Of a stretch of 24,763 nucleotides of DNA, positions 2,113-20,082 are shown in pieces. Numbering within the stretch: position 1 is the first letter of the stretch; every line of letters begins with the position of its first letter. This DNA is from a virus, in the IMG/VR virus record IMGVR_UViG_3300044608_002745, positions 1 through 24,763 of that record. One strand, given 5' to 3'. The notes under the pieces are model-generated. The model was given only the letters and a program-made list of their open reading frames with translations, was not told the origin of the DNA and made no database searches. The translations under genes were made by a program, and so were the position numbers.

Positions 2113-2361
2113 CTATAAATATTTTTTTAAATTCTCAAATGTTTCTAATGTTTCTTTTTCAATTACAAGAAAATTATATTTATTAAATCCCTCAATAAAT
2201 TGTAACAATAAATCACAAAAAGTTTTTGGAACTACTACCCATTGATTGTTAGTTTGAGACTTAAGCCACATTGACAATTCGTGCGTATCTACACCATCAA
2301 TTTTAGTAAATAACAACCTCATAAACTCTTCTTTCGGAATAAAACGATCTTTTATAGCCAT
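2113..2361 (-). CDS. Hypothetical protein, 82 aa
   Basis: It starts one base beyond the stop of the 217-aa gene, so the two are one transcription unit. I recognise no known domain. The N-terminal half (FIPKEEFMRLLF...ELSMWLKSQTNN) resembles the product at 22209-22415 (FITKAKIEELL...LSKWLRDNTNS), suggesting two paralogs of an element-specific small helical family at opposite ends of the window. A leucine-rich helix occupies the C-terminus. Confidence 0.7.
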   Translation of the reverse strand: MAIKDRFIPKEEFMRLLFTKIDGVDTHELSMWLKSQTNNQWVVVPKTFCDLLLQFIEGFNKYNFLVIEKETLETFENLKKYL

Positions 2362-4935: not shown

Positions 4936-5580
4936 ATGACTATAAATTTTCGTGTATATGGATATGTATATGGACATATAAGGGCATCAACAAAAATACA
5001 AGATGCAATAAAAGCAATAAACACCATAATCCATTTTGCTAATAATTCAAATTTGCCTATTACAGCTTTTTTTACAGAGAATGAAAGTAGGGCCAAACTA
5101 GAACACCCTGAATTATTTAGATTATTGGATATGGCTCAAACCGGCGATATTATTTTAATTGAGCAGATAGATCGTATCTCAAGATTAAATGATATAGACT
5201 GGAACAAGTTAAAAACAATTATTAAAACAAAACAGCTTAAAATAATTTTTCTTGATATACCAACAAGTCATCAAATTATAGAATATAACGATAAATTTAC
5301 TGATACCATGTTAATGGTAATCAACGACTTAATGTTTGATATGTTAGATGCAATAGTTCGTAAAGATTACCAACGTCATAAACATAAACACTCAGAAGGA
5401 ATAATAAAAGCCAAATCTCAAGGATTATACAAAGGTAGAAGAGAAGATACTGAATTACATAGAAAAATTGAGCTGTTACTTTCAAAGAACGAGCCATATA
5501 GTGTGATTATGAGCTCACTTAGATGCTCAAAAGGTACTGTTGCTAAAGTTGCTAAACGAAAAAAGGAGTTAGAAAAATAG
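4936..5580 (+). CDS. Serine recombinase (resolvase/invertase family)
   Basis: 214 aa. The catalytic serine is Ser18 in YGHIRASTKIQ, the equivalent of the YxRVSTxxQ start of the family. The second active-site block is IEQIDRISRL near residues 77-86. A long helix follows, then a region with IIKAKSQGLYKGRRED and a C-terminal helix-turn-helix (LLSKNEPYSVIMSSLRCSKGTVAKVAKR in two parts). All expected catalytic arginines appear present, though the central domain is diverged. Placed directly after a Rep-like gene, it may resolve plasmid dimers. It is distinct from the second recombinase at 6043-6654. Confidence 0.85.
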   Translation: MTINFRVYGYVYGHIRASTKIQDAIKAINTIIHFANNSNLPITAFFTENESRAKLEHPELFRLLDMAQTGDIILIEQIDRISRLNDIDWNKLKTIIKTKQLKIIFLDIPTSHQIIEYNDKFTDTMLMVINDLMFDMLDAIVRKDYQRHKHKHSEGIIKAKSQGLYKGRREDTELHRKIELLLSKNEPYSVIMSSLRCSKGTVAKVAKRKKELEK

Positions 5581-5581
5581 A

Positions 5582-5875
5582 CTATTTATTATTATTTCTA
5601 ACTATCTCGGTAAAATCCGACCAGTCTTCTACTTTAAAGGCTCTAATATCTCGTACTGAGTCAGAGAACCACTGAACGTTAGATAGCTTATTAATTACCT
5701 TGTAAACAGTCGTAAGATCGTTCTTTTCATTTTTGGAAAGATAAAGACTACCTTGTGTTCCAATAAAACCTAAATCTTCCATCATTGCCCTAATTTCATC
5801 ATAAGCTTTATTATAGGGCTCGCCGTAGTTTTCTTTTAACTTTGCCACTTCCATGTCGAATGATATTGCGTACAT
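5582..5875 (-). CDS. vapD: VapD endoribonuclease
   Basis: 97 aa, the family's usual length. Characteristic blocks are [20 protein letters not shown] at the start, [13 protein letters not shown] in the middle, and [16 protein letters not shown] and [17 protein letters not shown] towards the end. VapD has a Cas2-like ferredoxin fold and cleaves RNA as a dimer; homologs sit on plasmids and in prophages. Here it is convergent with the first recombinase, whose stop is one base away, and lies near a separate VapBC pair. No obvious partner antitoxin (VapX type) adjoins it. Confidence 0.92.
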
Positions 5876-5945
5876 AACTGCTTAAAAATTTTAAAGTTGT
5901 AAAATGAGGTAAGCTAGGACTAAGTCGGTAAACCGCAAAGACACC

Positions 5946-6041
5946 ACGCATGCAGCGGACGTTCACTTACCCTCGTATTACTATAACACGAAACCAAGCT
6001 TAGTTCTATAGGCTTTTTAGGCATGCGTATACTAGTATACG
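5946..6041. repeat. Inverted repeats beside the resolvase gene, possible recombination site
   Basis: ACGCATGC (5946-5953) is the reverse complement of GCATGCGT (6021-6028), and a perfect 16-bp palindrome CGTATACTAGTATACG occupies 6026-6041, ending one base before the resolvase stop codon. The stretch 5876-6042 holds no gene I can support. Its less AT-rich composition resembles the adjoining resolvase, suggesting they moved together. Confidence 0.45.
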
Positions 6042-6042
6042 T

Positions 6043-6654
6043 CTAAAGTTTAAGCCGTTTTAATGCCCGCGCGCGAAGCTCGCCTGTTGGGCTAACGTAA
6101 CTATATAGTGTACTGCGTGTTATTTTTAATTCTTTGCAAAGATCGGTTACAGAAGTATCCCTATTTTTCATAGCGGCCTCCACCATTCGTACTTGTGCTT
6201 TACTTAATTGAAATTTTCTACCACCATTCGTACCTCTAGCACGAGCTGCGGCGAGTCCTGCTTTTACTCGCTCGCTAATTAAATCACTTTCAAACTCAGC
6301 AAGCGATGCAAATATTCCAAAAGTTAAACGTCCTGCGGCGGTAGTTGTGTCAATATTAGCTCCTTGTCCTGATAAAATACGAAAACCGATATTCCGCCGA
6401 GTAAGATCGGTGATAGTTTTGACTAAGTGTGAGAGATTACGCCCTAATCTGTCAAGTTTCCAGACCACTAAGACATCATGTTCTCTCAAGGATTTTAAAC
6501 AAGCCTCTAATCCCGGTCTTTTATCATTTCTACCTGAGGCATAATCTTCGTAGATATAAGGCTCTTGTACGCCGTGTGCTTTTAGAGCATCTAATTGGAG
6601 ATTTGTTGTTTGAGAGCCGTCTGCTTTTGAGACTCGCATATAACCGACAAGCAT
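6043..6654 (-). CDS. Serine resolvase/invertase, Tn3-resolvase type
   Basis: 203 aa with a complete family layout: YMRVSKADGSQ with catalytic Ser9, YEDYASGRNDKRPGL, LVVWKLDRLGRNLSHL, the SGQGANIDTTTAAGRL block and FASLAEFESDLISERVKAGL, then a linker ARARGTNGG and a C-terminal helix-turn-helix (DTSVTDLCKELKITRSTLYSY). It is richer in G+C than its surroundings, pointing to acquisition from another host. A strong promoter with paired operators lies upstream (6727-6774). Expected role: site-specific resolution or inversion. Confidence 0.95.
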   Translation of the reverse strand: MLVGYMRVSKADGSQTTNLQLDALKAHGVQEPYIYEDYASGRNDKRPGLEACLKSLREHDVLVVWKLDRLGRNLSHLVKTITDLTRRNIGFRILSGQGANIDTTTAAGRLTFGIFASLAEFESDLISERVKAGLAAARARGTNGGRKFQLSKAQVRMVEAAMKNRDTSVTDLCKELKITRSTLYSYVSPTGELRARALKRLKL

Positions 6655-6826: not shown

Positions 6827-7240
6827 TTATTTTTCAAAAGGATTAATTACTTCAAGCCCTTGATAACAAAAGTCTTTTGTATTTCTTGTAACTAAAATAA
6901 GGTCAAAATGCAACGCGGTAGAAGCTATTAAACTATCAATAACAGGTACAGATTTTGTGATTTCTGCGCATATTATTCCCCATTTATTTGCAACATCTAC
7001 ATCTATTGATAATATACGCTCACCAAACCAAGATACTAAGTCTTGTTCTAACCACAGGCATATTTTTCTCTTTTTGTCTAAATCGTTTATTTTTTCTAAG
7101 CCTTTTCTTATTTCACCTAAAGTTAAAACACTTATATACAAATCTTCGTTTGCTATCGAATTAAACCACTTAATGACATTAGCATTTGGAGTGGGTTTTA
7201 TTGTTTCGCAGATTACGTTTGTATCAATTAAATAAGCCAT
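6827..7240 (-). CDS. vapC: VapC-type PIN-domain toxin ribonuclease
   Basis: 137 aa, typical for VapC. Metal-binding acidic residues of the PIN fold are visible: D6 in LIDTN, E43 in LGEIRKG, D102 in PVIDSLIA and the final RNTKDF with D123. It would cleave RNA when released from its antitoxin. It follows the antitoxin gene with a 2-nt gap, the usual antitoxin-first order, and the pair is a plausible addiction module for the element. Confidence 0.93.
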   Translation of the reverse strand: MAYLIDTNVICETIKPTPNANVIKWFNSIANEDLYISVLTLGEIRKGLEKINDLDKKRKICLWLEQDLVSWFGERILSIDVDVANKWGIICAEITKSVPVIDSLIASTALHFDLILVTRNTKDFCYQGLEVINPFEK

Positions 7241-7242
7241 AA

Positions 7243-7491
7243 TTATAAGTTAATTTTCCGTGGTTCGTCAGCATTTCTTTCAATATCCAATACTATACCT
7301 ACCAACGGGGATTTTCGCATAAATTTTACCAAATTGTCTTTGGTGTTCACTAACTCTCTATACTTATCGATAGATAGAATAACTGCTGTTGATTTACCTC
7401 TAACACTTATTTCTTGTGGGCCATAATTAACAGCAGATTTTATAAGCTTGCTTAATTTTGCTTTAGCTTCTTGCATTTGCCATTTTTTCAT
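7243..7491 (-). CDS. Phd/YefM-type antitoxin of the VapC pair
   Basis: 82 aa. The N-terminal DNA-binding part carries KKWQMQEAKAKLSKLIKSA, then GPQEISVRGKSTAVILSIDKYREL, a clear Phd/YefM signature. The C-terminal ~30 residues would wrap the toxin. The complex would be expected to repress its own promoter, where tandem 9-bp repeats overlap the -10. Confidence 0.9.
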   Translation of the reverse strand: MKKWQMQEAKAKLSKLIKSAVNYGPQEISVRGKSTAVILSIDKYRELVNTKDNLVKFMRKSPLVGIVLDIERNADEPRKINL

Positions 7492-7552: not shown

Positions 7553-7827
7553 AGTGCATTTTTAATGTGGCAACAACTCCTCACTATACCCAGTAGAATT
7601 GTAATTTAACCTCTTTTCTTGAGCCAAGCGTTGACATAGGATTTATCAATTAGCTAAGCTAAAATAGCTAATGGCAATTTGAAAACCTGCCCTTGCAAAC
7701 AATAACTTAGTGCTCTCATGCTAGGGGTCAGTTATTATAAGTGCCTCTGGCATGAAGGTAACTGAATAATTGTTGTACAGCAATTGGTTTTCAGCCCCTG
7801 GCACTTATCAATTAAACATAGTAATTT
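7553..7827 (+). ncRNA. Foldable non-coding region, possible structured RNA or leader
   Basis: No gene is supportable here. GAAAACC (7681-7687) can pair with GGTTTTC (7786-7792), ATAAGTGCC (7737-7745) with GGCACTTAT (7800-7808), and TCAGTTA with TAACTGA inside; AATTGTTGTACAGCAATT (7768-7785) is a near-perfect palindrome. Some pairings exclude others, as in a switching leader. TTGACA at 7631-7636 followed 18 nt later by TAAGCT could be a promoter. The stretch leads straight into the small-protein cluster, so a regulatory leader is as likely as a free RNA. Confidence 0.35.
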
Positions 7828-8124
7828 ATGCAAGCAGATAGTTCTTGGGAGGTAGTCGCATCCTCTATTATAGACCAACTTAAAAATATTGAAGCATTTT
7901 TAAAAAACCAAAAATTAAGTGCAGAAGAATACTTACAACAAAATGGTGATAAAGCTACCTTCCAGGTTTTAGAAGCACAGCTTAGGTCAACTCAAGTTTC
8001 ATTCGAGAGGATGGAGGATAAACTACACGATATGATTATTTATTTATGTCGTGCGATGACAGTAAGTAAGGTTCATCAGTTAAACAATTTACTCGGGGAG
8101 GTTGGGCATGGAATGGAACAGTGA
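7828..8124 (+). CDS. Hypothetical helical protein, 98 aa
   Basis: The product looks wholly alpha-helical, with heptad-like spacing (IDQLKNIEAFLKNQKL, LEAQLRSTQVSFERMEDKL), and should form a coiled coil. No membrane segment or known motif. It is the first gene of a compact cluster whose next members are tiny membrane peptides; its 3' end overlaps the next by 17 nt, indicating coupling. Confidence 0.6.
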   Translation: MQADSSWEVVASSIIDQLKNIEAFLKNQKLSAEEYLQQNGDKATFQVLEAQLRSTQVSFERMEDKLHDMIIYLCRAMTVSKVHQLNNLLGEVGHGMEQ

Positions 8125-8218
8125 TGACCCTTTCATAAAGTGGATTACTAGGATTTATGTTATAGGAGTATTGATTGGGATGCCTACGGCTTATTACTGG
8201 ATATTGGGGGAGTTATGA
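8108..8218 (+). CDS. 36-aa membrane peptide
   Basis: ATG at 8108, TGA at 8216-8218. An acidic N-terminus (MEWNSDDPF) leads into IKWITRIYVIGVLIGMPTAYYWILGEL, a single hydrophobic helix. It overlaps the preceding gene in another frame and shares ATGA with the next. A GGAG-type site (GGGGAGGTTGGG) lies in the preceding gene's end. Function unknown. Confidence 0.45.
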   Translation: MEWNSDDPFIKWITRIYVIGVLIGMPTAYYWILGEL

Positions 8219-8328
8219 AAGAAGATGAAAATAAACCTAAAAATGATGGATGGACAACAACTATAATTAGTATTGCGATTACTTGCGGCTTTTTATTAGC
8301 ATGTTTAGGAAGGTGTGATTCCTTCTAA
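8215..8328 (+). CDS. 37-aa membrane peptide with cysteines
   Basis: ATG at 8215 overlaps the previous stop; the ribosome site is GGGGGAG. A charged N-terminus (MKEDENKPKND) precedes one hydrophobic helix TTTIISIAITCGFLLACLG ending RCDSF. The LLAC string resembles a lipobox only superficially, because it lies at the end of the peptide. Function unknown. Confidence 0.45.
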   Translation: MKEDENKPKNDGWTTTIISIAITCGFLLACLGRCDSF

Positions 8329-8367
8329 GCTTATTGGGATGTACTTGATATTGGGGATGGTGGAGTG

Positions 8368-8628
8368 ATGAAAAGATTTTTAGTATTGATATTTCCTATT
8401 GTATTAACATTTATTTTTTGCCTGTTAAACTTTATACTAGTAATCAATTTAATTGAAAATTGGGTTTTACAAATAATAATAATGTTTATTAATACACTTT
8501 TATTCATGTATGGATTGGTCTATACTGGGATTGATGACTACTATTATGATAATGAGAGTCAACAGAAAGTAATCAATAAATGTAAAATATTAAAATCCAA
8601 AATAATTAATCTATTATCAAGGGGTTAG
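8368..8628 (+). CDS. Small membrane protein, two predicted helices
   Basis: The 86-aa form from the ATG at 8368 is preferred over the GTG three bases earlier; GGTGGAG lies just upstream. Hydrophobic segments at about residues 3-25 (FLVLIFPIVLTFIFCLLNF onward) and 30-50 (VLQIIIMFINTLLFMYGLV) are followed by a tyrosine-rich acidic patch DDYYYDNE and a basic tail. No family recognised. Small size and clustering with two one-helix peptides would fit a phage membrane-active or superinfection protein, but nothing in the sequence proves that. Confidence 0.6.
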   Translation: MKRFLVLIFPIVLTFIFCLLNFILVINLIENWVLQIIIMFINTLLFMYGLVYTGIDDYYYDNESQQKVINKCKILKSKIINLLSRG

Positions 8629-8635
8629 TCATAAG

Positions 8636-8782
8636 CTACTTACCTTGTTGAAATATAAAGTAGAAAGTGAAAATCAAAAGAACTGCATCTAGTGTCAAAA
8701 AACCAAGAAAATGATAAAACTTGCTTTTTTCAAGTTTTATCATTTCTCGAGTCTTTTGAACCAATTGTGTAAATTCAGCCAT
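8636..8782 (-). CDS. 48-aa membrane peptide containing a 15-bp coding palindrome
   Basis: ATG at 8782, TAG at 8636-8638, with AAGGTG just upstream. A charged first half (MAEFTQLVQKTREMIKLEKSKFYHF) is followed by one hydrophobic helix LGFLTLDAVLLIFTFYFIF. A perfect 15-bp inverted repeat (8709-8745) lies inside the reading frame. It is convergent with the plus-strand membrane gene and downstream of the MFS gene. Real translation is plausible but unproven. Confidence 0.4.
   Translation of the reverse strand: MAEFTQLVQKTREMIKLEKSKFYHFLGFLTLDAVLLIFTFYFIFQQGK
8709..8745. repeat. Perfect 15-bp inverted repeat, 7-nt T-rich loop
   Basis: AAATGATAAAACTTG (8709-8723) pairs fully with CAAGTTTTATCATTT (8731-8745). 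It lies between convergent transcription units and may serve as a bidirectional transcription end, although neither strand has a clean T-run immediately after the stem. Confidence 0.6.
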
Positions 8783-8853
8783 AAGCACCTTAAATTCTAT
8801 CCTCAAATTTTATCATATCATTTCTCCTTCAACTTACTTCTAATTCCCAAAAC

Positions 8854-10146
8854 TTATTTTTGTGCATTTGACTCTTTCTCAAGTTTATCAAAGTAGAATA
8901 ATGCACTTGTGTAACAAATTAATATGGGAATAAATAAGATTAACAAACCAATATTACCAAAATTTTGTATTAATATTACTAATCCAAAAGAAGTGATAGC
9001 AAACATTATAGCTCGGCCAAGAGCATAGGTAATTCCTGTATACTTAGCACGTTGTAAAATATGAATATATTTATAAAAAATTGGAAAACCAGGCAAGCCA
9101 TGTATGGCAAATGCTGCCATTGCATATTGAATAATTGTTAAATGATAAGGTTCTGTTACATTGTTTAGTAAAAAAGGTAATGAAAGAACTAGAATTACTG
9201 ATATGACAAGTTGAATTTTTAGTATTTTAAGAGGATTTATATAGTAGCTAGTCCACATCAACAATATTATTCTTCCTAAATCGAAAATAGAAAGAACTAA
9301 ATTATGATGGATAACATTCTCAGATGAATAATTAAAAAGACTTTTAAAAATTTCACCTGTATAGATATAAACAAAATAATAATATAAAGGAAAAACACAT
9401 TCAATAATTAGGAGAAAGATCCAAGTTTGGTTTGGGGTATCTTCTTCTTTTAGATTTAAAATTTTTTTAGCTTCTGTGAAAGAAATATTAAATTTATCTG
9501 CAGTTTCTATTATTTTATTTTTAATATTTACAAACTCTGGAGTTTCTTTTAATTCTTTTCTTGCATACATTCCTACTAATGCAATTATTATTCCTATCCA
9601 AAAAGCATATCTCCAGCTAAAACCTTCTATTGTTACTATGGAGGCAACAGCAAGAGCAAATGTTCCTCCTAGAGCTGAGAATAATGAAGTTATTCCCATT
9701 GCGGGATATTGGATAGGGGGTCTTGTTGTCTCCATAATATATAGTGAACAGCTAGTTACTTCTCCAGTTGAAGATAAACTTTGCATAATTCGACATAAAG
9801 TCATTACAACAGAAGCAGTAATTCCAATCTGGGCATAACACGGAAGATTCGCCATAATAAAACATGATATGCTCATTATGATTGTTGTCAGTATTAAAAC
9901 TGGTTTACGACCGAAATTATCTCCTATCCATCCAAATATTACAGCACCTATTGGTCTAAATATAAAAGTAATACTAAATCCTAAAGCAGATAAAAGAGCT
10001 GCAGAATATTGATCTGTTGGCGGATAAAACAAACCATTAAGCAAAACTGCCATATGAACATAGAGCATCAAATCAAAGTATTCCAAAAATGTTCCAGTCG
10101 CTAGTAACCCTAATGTTTTTTTTAATTCTTTAGTTAATTTTTTCAT
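8854..10146 (-). CDS. MFS transporter, ProP-like (proline/betaine/metabolite:H+ symporter group)
   Basis: I place the start at the ATG at 10146 (430 aa), which gives the usual basic N-terminus MKKLTKELKK before the first helix (GLLATGTFLEYFDLMLY); upstream ATG/TTG at 10206/10209 would add about 21 residues with no ribosome site. The signature between helices 2 and 3 is GWIGDNFGRKPVLILTT, the GDxxGRR/KP motif. About 12 hydrophobic segments are visible, with a long charged central loop (KELKETPEFVNIKNKIIETADKF). The family exchanges small osmolytes or metabolites across the inner membrane. Intracellular Rickettsiales keep many such carriers; here it is cargo on a mobile element. Confidence 0.88.
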   Translation of the reverse strand: MKKLTKELKKTLGLLATGTFLEYFDLMLYVHMAVLLNGLFYPPTDQYSAALLSALGFSITFIFRPIGAVIFGWIGDNFGRKPVLILTTIIMSISCFIMANLPCYAQIGITASVVMTLCRIMQSLSSTGEVTSCSLYIMETTRPPIQYPAMGITSLFSALGGTFALAVASIVTIEGFSWRYAFWIGIIIALVGMYARKELKETPEFVNIKNKIIETADKFNISFTEAKKILNLKEEDTPNQTWIFLLIIECVFPLYYYFVYIYTGEIFKSLFNYSSENVIHHNLVLSIFDLGRIILLMWTSYYINPLKILKIQLVISVILVLSLPFLLNNVTEPYHLTIIQYAMAAFAIHGLPGFPIFYKYIHILQRAKYTGITYALGRAIMFAITSFGLVILIQNFGNIGLLILFIPILICYTSALFYFDKLEKESNAQK

Positions 10147-10222
10147 AAAAACCGAATCGTAAAATCTTACTACTCTTAATTTATAAGAAAATATTTTATT
10201 ATCCATCAAAAAATTAACAAAA

Positions 10223-19446: not shown

Positions 19447-20082
19447 ATGAAAATAATAGCAGTACTTAACCAGAAAGGCGGATGTGGTAAGACTACGATT
19501 GCTATAAACCTTACTCATTCATTACAGAACTTAGGTCATAAAGTATTACTTGTCGACAGCGATCCTCAAGGATCAGCTAGAGATTGGAATGTAGAAAACG
19601 ATGGTAAAATTATCCCGATTATAGGATTAGATAGAGTTTCACTCGCAAGTGATATAGAGGCAGTAAAAGCAGGTTACGAGTTTATTGTTATCGATGGAGC
19701 GCCATCAGTAACTAAACTCGCTGCTGCTGCTGTAAAAATAGCGGATTTTGTTTTAGTACCAGTCCAACCGTCTCCTTGGGATATCTGGGCAACATCTGAT
19801 TTAGTAGAAATAATCGAAGCGCGACAGGACGTTGCTAATGGTAAGCCATTGGCAGCTTTTGTCGTTAGTAGGGTTATTAAAAATACTAAATTAAGCCAAG
19901 AAGTAGTAGAGGCTTTAAAACAATATGAACTACCCGTTCTTAATTCATATACTACGCAGCGAGTGGTATATCCAACTTCTGCAAGCGAGGGCAATACTGT
20001 GTATACTCAGGTTTTTAACGATGCAACGTTAGAAATAGATTCTATAAGAGATGAAATACTAGAGGCAATGAAATGGCTTTAA
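19447..20082 (+). CDS. parA: ParA-type partition ATPase
   Basis: 211 aa, the short plasmid (type Ib-like) ParA length, lacking an N-terminal HTH. The deviant Walker A is KGGCGKTT (10-17), followed by VLLVDSDPQGSARDW (Walker A' region) and FIVIDGAPS (Walker B). C-terminal FVVSRVIKNTKLSQEVVEAL fits the family. It would position plasmid copies over the nucleoid together with the overlapping RHH gene. Upstream repeats support autoregulation. Strong evidence that the element is, or recently was, an independent replicon. Confidence 0.95.
   Translation: MKIIAVLNQKGGCGKTTIAINLTHSLQNLGHKVLLVDSDPQGSARDWNVENDGKIIPIIGLDRVSLASDIEAVKAGYEFIVIDGAPSVTKLAAAAVKIADFVLVPVQPSPWDIWATSDLVEIIEARQDVANGKPLAAFVVSRVIKNTKLSQEVVEALKQYELPVLNSYTTQRVVYPTSASEGNTVYTQVFNDATLEIDSIRDEILEAMKWL

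Follow-up and report, generated by a model that had tools for sequence, protein, structure and literature searches.

H-type pseudoknots are found among translational riboswitches and cis-regulatory leaders, examples being preQ1-II and SAM-II. Small membrane proteins are familiar from the exclusion systems of mobile elements, such as T4 Imm and HK97 gp15 (phage superinfection exclusion) and TrbK (conjugal entry exclusion). To our knowledge, few regulatory RNAs are known in the Rickettsiales, which live as obligate intracellular bacteria and for which few genetic tools exist.

The sequence analysed here (the window) is a stretch of 24,763 nt, an IMG/VR record of 24.8 kb representing a phage of Rickettsiales bacteria. 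An earlier note had flagged nt 7828–8782 as a cluster of five ORFs for tiny proteins, most of them predicted to be membrane-associated. A promoter, a palindrome and a structured leader lie upstream of this region (7631–7806), and are conserved to the same degree as the genes. The features of the locus are as follows:

7631–7636 (+): TTGACA, the −35 element of the cassette promoter, kept in 14/14 aligned copies
7650–7671 (no strand): operator-like palindrome TTAGCTA-N8-TAGCTAA, over the −10 region
7670–7806 (+): leader RNA, from covariation, fold z-score and covariance-model matches
7680–7687 with 7786–7793 (+): leader helix P1a
7729–7734 with 7759–7764 (+): leader helix P2
7741–7745 with 7749–7753 (+): leader helix P3
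7720–7727 (GCTAGGGG) with 7795–7802 (CCCCTGGC) (+): leader pseudoknot
7828–8124 (+): 98-aa helical-hairpin (coiled-coil) protein, from 14 phage contigs, dN/dS, AlphaFold2 and relatives by F-type tra genes
8108–8218 (+): 36-aa one-helix peptide, beginning MEWNSDDPFIKW, with Shine-Dalgarno sequence GGGGAGG; overlaps the 98-aa gene by 17 nt
8215–8328 (+): 37-aa one-helix ORF, ATGA overlap with the 36-aa stop; cargo at the junction
8329–8367 (+): putative degraded 3′ terminus of a 36-aa gene copy, as a scar of recombination, from a weak, gapped local alignment with 8173–8220
8368–8628 (+): 86-aa two-helix cargo protein, in the window, L003 and L007, with distant 88/101-aa forms in L006/L013
8636–8782 (−): 48-aa convergent one-helix ORF of doubtful status, 56 aa if started at an upstream TTG
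8708–8746 (−): terminator-like hairpin between the convergent units, with a 16-pair stem and T-rich tail

The locus resembles several described systems in part. Like leaders of the preQ1-II and SAM-II type, it has a covarying pseudoknot just before ORFs, and several chromosomal copies of the RNA carry a strand that may be able to mask the Shine-Dalgarno sequence; unlike them, it has no Rfam match, is followed by several unrelated micropeptide genes, and has phage copies without Shine-Dalgarno pairing. With its structured leader ahead of a small product of one helix, the locus recalls type I toxin mRNAs of the hok and tisB kind, whereas the phage unit has two genes, one of them for a soluble partner, and many unrelated peptides share one RNA. 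In being small, fast-varying membrane proteins carried on phages and conjugative elements, the products are akin to T4 Imm, HK97 gp15 and TrbK, but they show no sequence family match, and exclusion is here a candidate role.

A scan of viral contigs that used both the 98-aa sequence and an alignment of it returned 13 relatives besides the window, and in 14/14 of these contigs the 36-aa gene lies directly behind the 98-aa gene; it is duplicated in L007–L010. Values of dN/dS are ~0.32 (98-aa gene) and ~0.14 (36-aa gene). The peptide is under purifying selection, and the two ORFs are real, jointly kept genes. AlphaFold2 modelled the 98-aa protein as a two-helix hairpin (mean pLDDT 76). A clear Shine-Dalgarno sequence is absent before this gene in the phages. 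Searches of the small proteins against Pfam, PHROGs, PADLOC and PDB sequences returned nothing convincing, public phage and plasmid records (tblastn) gave no match to the 98-aa protein, and no close relative of it was present in the genome contigs searched. The proposal of a coiled-coil protein translationally linked to a one-helix peptide and belonging to no known family was thus borne out, the pair being conserved in 14 phage contigs.

Beyond the pair the content varies. The next gene shares the terminal ATGA of the 36-aa gene in seven loci, a ~255–290-aa ORF follows in L009, L014, L015 and L016, and the ATGA junction is an exchange point for small genes, with the 37-, 86- and 48-aa ORFs as exchangeable cargo. 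The 37-aa ORF occurs in the window and L010 only, and selection on it is not assessable because the two copies are identical at the DNA level. For the 86-aa ORF there are two close relatives (83–87%) and a distant 88/101-aa pair in the same position; comparison of the window with L012 gave a pN of 0.10 and a pS of 0.086, so purifying selection is not evident. The only relative of the 48-aa ORF (50% over 32 aa) lies in L029, adjacent to an SSS symporter gene, and the ORF spans the 16-bp terminator-like hairpin. Since a possible decayed 36-aa tail precedes the 86-aa gene in the window, recombination may have exchanged cassettes ahead of that gene. Four TM-like ORFs of 35–95 aa were counted in nt 8101–8850 against 0.37 ± 0.58 expected from first-order Markov resampling, and a count of four was reached in 0/500 resamplings; the four include a 58-aa antisense ORF absent from the earlier note, and the 36-aa peptide falls just under the hydropathy cut-off (1.55). 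All five ORFs of the earlier note exist, but they do not form one unit, as only the first two travel together; gene order in relatives, which the note had proposed to check, is conserved through the 36-aa gene and not past it.

The ~200 bp preceding the 98-aa gene carry the TTGACA box, then the operator-like palindrome, and then a stretch that is variable in sequence and constant in pairing. The promoter was not listed by an automatic promoter scan; its −10 box probably lies at ~7655–7660. The palindrome pattern occurs once per record in six records, at this position, with mismatched forms in others, and its placement suggests an operator. The leader RNA, the most distinctive part of the locus, consists of a long arm plus a pseudoknot, and the folding energy of the window copy corresponds to z = −4.1. 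The 5′ strand of the pseudoknot can also pair with one side of P3 (CCUCUGGCA). This alternative pairing appears when the window copy is folded to minimum energy, and hints at two states of the RNA.

Support for the structure comes from covariation. Among the 14 phage copies, two-sided changes were found in 18/37 pairs. In an alignment of 72 distinct copies (A11), which was fitted to the nested structure and not to the pseudoknot, and which counts related sequences repeatedly, two-sided compensatory changes were present in 35/37 pairs and 93.7% of cells were paired. A slide of one column lowered the latter value to 41–44%, and compensatory changes filled 552 cells compared with 151 after shuffling and at most 85 after sliding. 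The pseudoknot, which lies outside the models, was paired in 97.7% of cells and showed two-sided changes in 6/8 pairs, with strand variants such as GCUAGGGG/CCCCUAGC, GCCGGGAG/CUCCCGGC and GCUGGGAA/UUCCCAGC. It is virtually certain that the leader is a real, conserved structured RNA.

A DNA pattern scan of viral contigs detected the leader in 16, comprising the 13 already known along with L029, L032 and L035 (a truncated copy). Other genes lie behind the leader in these last three, so the RNA is not tied to the 98-aa gene. Genome searches with covariance models R2 and R3, whose E-values are rough, found it in up to 31/344 Rickettsiales genomes, at 1–4 copies each, and in 0/385 genomes drawn evenly from the class. 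Genomes G200–G222 appear to be Rickettsia-like from their gene content, and in the Rickettsia-like genomes inspected the RNA recurs at the cox3–coq7 and tim44–rbfA intergenic sites. No Rfam 15 family reached its gathering score in the window, four leader copies gave chance-level matches only, and the leader DNA was not found in public phages and plasmids by blastn. Candidate riboswitches and sRNAs, including leader RNAs before hypothetical proteins, have been described in Rickettsia conorii (PMC5105140); none of those loci could be matched to the leader sites by coordinates or flanking genes, a comparison that is not decisive as the coordinates refer to a different genome. Judged against Rfam 15 and open-access papers only, the RNA is apparently undescribed. 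Many chromosomal copies end in ACCA, but ARAGORN finds no tRNA or tmRNA in the phage sequences. Some copies start with CUGAUGA, as noted by eye for a possible hammerhead ribozyme, but the rest of that core is missing.

The genes behind the chromosomal leaders include one-helix peptides of unrelated families: 30–31 aa in L082, L083 and L142 (pN 0.25, pS 0.82), 57/58 aa in L143/L111, and 52–55 aa in L088, L092, L095, L096 and L101. In L081 and L132 the leader is followed by a soluble protein, related to that of L029, and then by a TM protein, and in genome G179 (L080) it lies ~0.4 kb upstream of a coiled-coil gene related to the 98-aa gene. Not every leader is associated with a membrane peptide: several Rickettsia-like copies have no clear downstream ORF, and the 81-aa protein behind the leader in L078 and L079 is a non-membrane protein. 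The leader and 57-aa one-helix ORF of L143 (1057–1181, +) immediately precede an apparent gene for the GTPase Era, and the leader and 81-aa gene of L079 (1501–1632, +) are directly upstream of a groES-like gene.

In most chromosomal copies outside the Rickettsia-like genomes, the sequence immediately preceding the start codon can base-pair with the pseudoknot 3′ strand, and does so better than shuffled spacers. The fraction relative to shuffled spacers was 0.004–0.036 for L082, L083, L142, L081, L143, L078, L079 and L032, and pairing was weak in other copies. Matched changes of spacer and 3′ strand were seen, such as GCTCC/GGAGC in L143 and ACTCC/GGAGT in L111. The phage copies show no such pairing with the Shine-Dalgarno sequence (fraction 0.4–0.7 against shuffled spacers).

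Relatives of the 98-aa protein are carried by conjugative elements. A profile search of the 344 Rickettsiales genomes matched two genomes, and an 84-aa relative taken from these matches was present in six genomes and four Candidatus Megaera plasmids; the 98-aa family and the 84-aa protein, compared as profiles, gave an E-value of 2.7e-6 over 62 columns. In the loci read, the 84-aa-type genes lie within or close to F-type tra operons on Rickettsiales plasmids and ICEs (traL, traB or traG, traW). They are accompanied by a 39-aa one-helix peptide in L062, L063 and L065, and in L044/L045 a 39-aa one-helix peptide is joined by an ATGA overlap. Elsewhere the gene after the coiled-coil gene encodes a larger TM protein or an HTH protein. 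In L044/L045, and in the Megaera plasmid regions, the coiled-coil gene has no leader nearby.

The phage itself shows further ties to the Rickettsiales. One protein of a phage relative is 88% identical to its match in the Rickettsiales MAG contig RXKF01000009.1, and the MFS transporter of the window has its closest relatives on Candidatus Megaera plasmids. The cassette is located within the early/maintenance region, together with resolvases, ParA and a Phd/PIN toxin‒antitoxin pair:

6827–7491 (−), 6043–6654 (−), 4936–5580 (+) and 19447–20082 (+): Phd/PIN pair, two resolvase-family proteins and ParA, in the window
8854–10209 (−) in the window, 9149–10159 (−) in L014 and 5214–6632 (−) in L029: MFS/sodium:solute symporter genes by the cassette

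Because resolvases, ParA and the Phd/PIN pair are present, and no integrase was recognised among the annotated genes, the gene content suggests a plasmid-like prophage that may persist as a plasmid. The MFS and sodium:solute symporter genes beside the cassette are swapped among the phage relatives, and lysogenic conversion with metabolite transporters is possible. A patatin-like phospholipase is encoded amid the structural genes of relative G007 (L019, 690–1853, −), with similar ORFs in G010 and G012. Proteins of ~80–100 aa with a motif like THxLSxWLxxxT were noted by eye only in the window (2113–2361, −), L015 and L029, and this type of family likewise appears, by eye only, to have relatives behind the leader RNA in chromosomes (L078, L079).

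Starting from the leader structure, the fixed pair, the exchange point, the relatives on conjugative elements and the chromosomal leader copies, all of them established computationally, the locus may be explained as an RNA-controlled membrane module of Rickettsiales mobile elements, possibly serving superinfection or entry exclusion. We hold this explanation as a whole tentatively, at slightly less than an even chance. The phage unit would run from a palindrome-overlapped promoter through the pseudoknotted leader to the 98-aa/36-aa pair, and on to the exchange point at the ATGA. The leader is likely to be a cis-regulator of small protein genes. That it acts as a translational switch in the chromosomal copies is an evenly balanced proposition: in the off state the pseudoknot 3′ strand would be paired to the Shine-Dalgarno sequence, in the on state it would pair with its 5′ strand and leave the Shine-Dalgarno sequence free, and a signal stabilising the fold would thereby switch on a small, often membrane, protein. 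As Shine-Dalgarno pairing is absent from the phage copies, and a clear Shine-Dalgarno sequence is missing before their first gene, the phage leader may act otherwise, with transcription or RNA stability as an alternative target. The protein pair probably holds the helical protein at the membrane. Exclusion is the role held most likely for the pair, though on genomic context only it is doubtful; it is favoured because a small membrane module is common to phages and conjugative elements.

The main rival to an exclusion role is a toxin. The one-helix peptides would then be membrane toxins of a toxin‒antitoxin or abortive infection system, acting in element maintenance or phage defence and restrained by the structured mRNA leader (type I-like) or by the 98-aa partner. 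This is unlikely, even though tiny one-helix products stand behind a strongly folded leader, the genes overlap in an antitoxin-like order and the unit adjoins the Phd/PIN pair: PADLOC gave no match, no antisense RNA gene was noticed, doubled copies of the 36-aa gene are tolerated, and L078 and L079 have unrelated, non-membrane genes behind the leader. The leader might instead be a put-like RNA antiterminator, an early-operon element that alters RNA polymerase and thereby allows readthrough of the variable cargo. Its start directly after a promoter with an operator-like palindrome, ahead of such cargo, would fit, as would the missing Shine-Dalgarno pairing in phage copies, but each phage has one leader copy where HK022 has two put sites, and the chromosomal copies head very short units, making this distinctly improbable. 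Less credible again is a mobile palindromic repeat, similar to the Rickettsia palindromic elements, inserted near genes by chance. The RNA is stem-rich and occurs in Rickettsiales, but a covarying pseudoknot is unexpected for a simple palindrome, and the genomes hold 1–4 copies at recurrent sites (cox3–coq7, tim44–rbfA).

A lysis cassette, which the earlier note had offered as one option, would make the small helical proteins parts of a holin, antiholin or spanin. Small membrane proteins in a phage are compatible with that, but the GH108 endolysin of relative G012 (L052:7425–7916) is unlinked, lying ~18 kb away among structural and late genes, the cassette is in the early/maintenance region, and its relatives sit on conjugative elements, which do not lyse; lysis is accordingly disfavoured and very improbable. 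A more substantial possibility, still well short of even, is that the small ORFs downstream of the 36-aa gene arose by chance or are in decay, and that the cluster is a real pair followed by debris. The two DNA-identical copies of the 37-aa ORF, the similar pN and pS of the 86-aa gene, the hairpin within the 48-aa ORF and the possible decayed 36-aa tail are all in keeping with this. On the other side, the 86-aa frame is open in three contigs and has a distant family at the same place, the 37-aa start is fused to the 36-aa stop, and TM-like ORFs outnumber those of resampled sequence.

The RNA-controlled membrane module can also be put in a broader form, which we regard as speculative and appreciably less probable than its failure. 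The leader would be a signal-sensing pseudoknot RNA of a new class, restricted to the Rickettsiales and the mobile elements they carry. It would turn on membrane micropeptides of several unrelated families, and phages and conjugative elements would have captured it to run a module of exchangeable parts that acts in membrane exclusion (or on the host membrane). A pseudoknot RNA with strong covariation that is found in chromosomes, a conjugative-type element and phages is a defined, testable regulator, and it points to micropeptide families overlooked by ordinary annotation. Questions of its structure and ligand are approachable in vitro, without culturing the bacteria.
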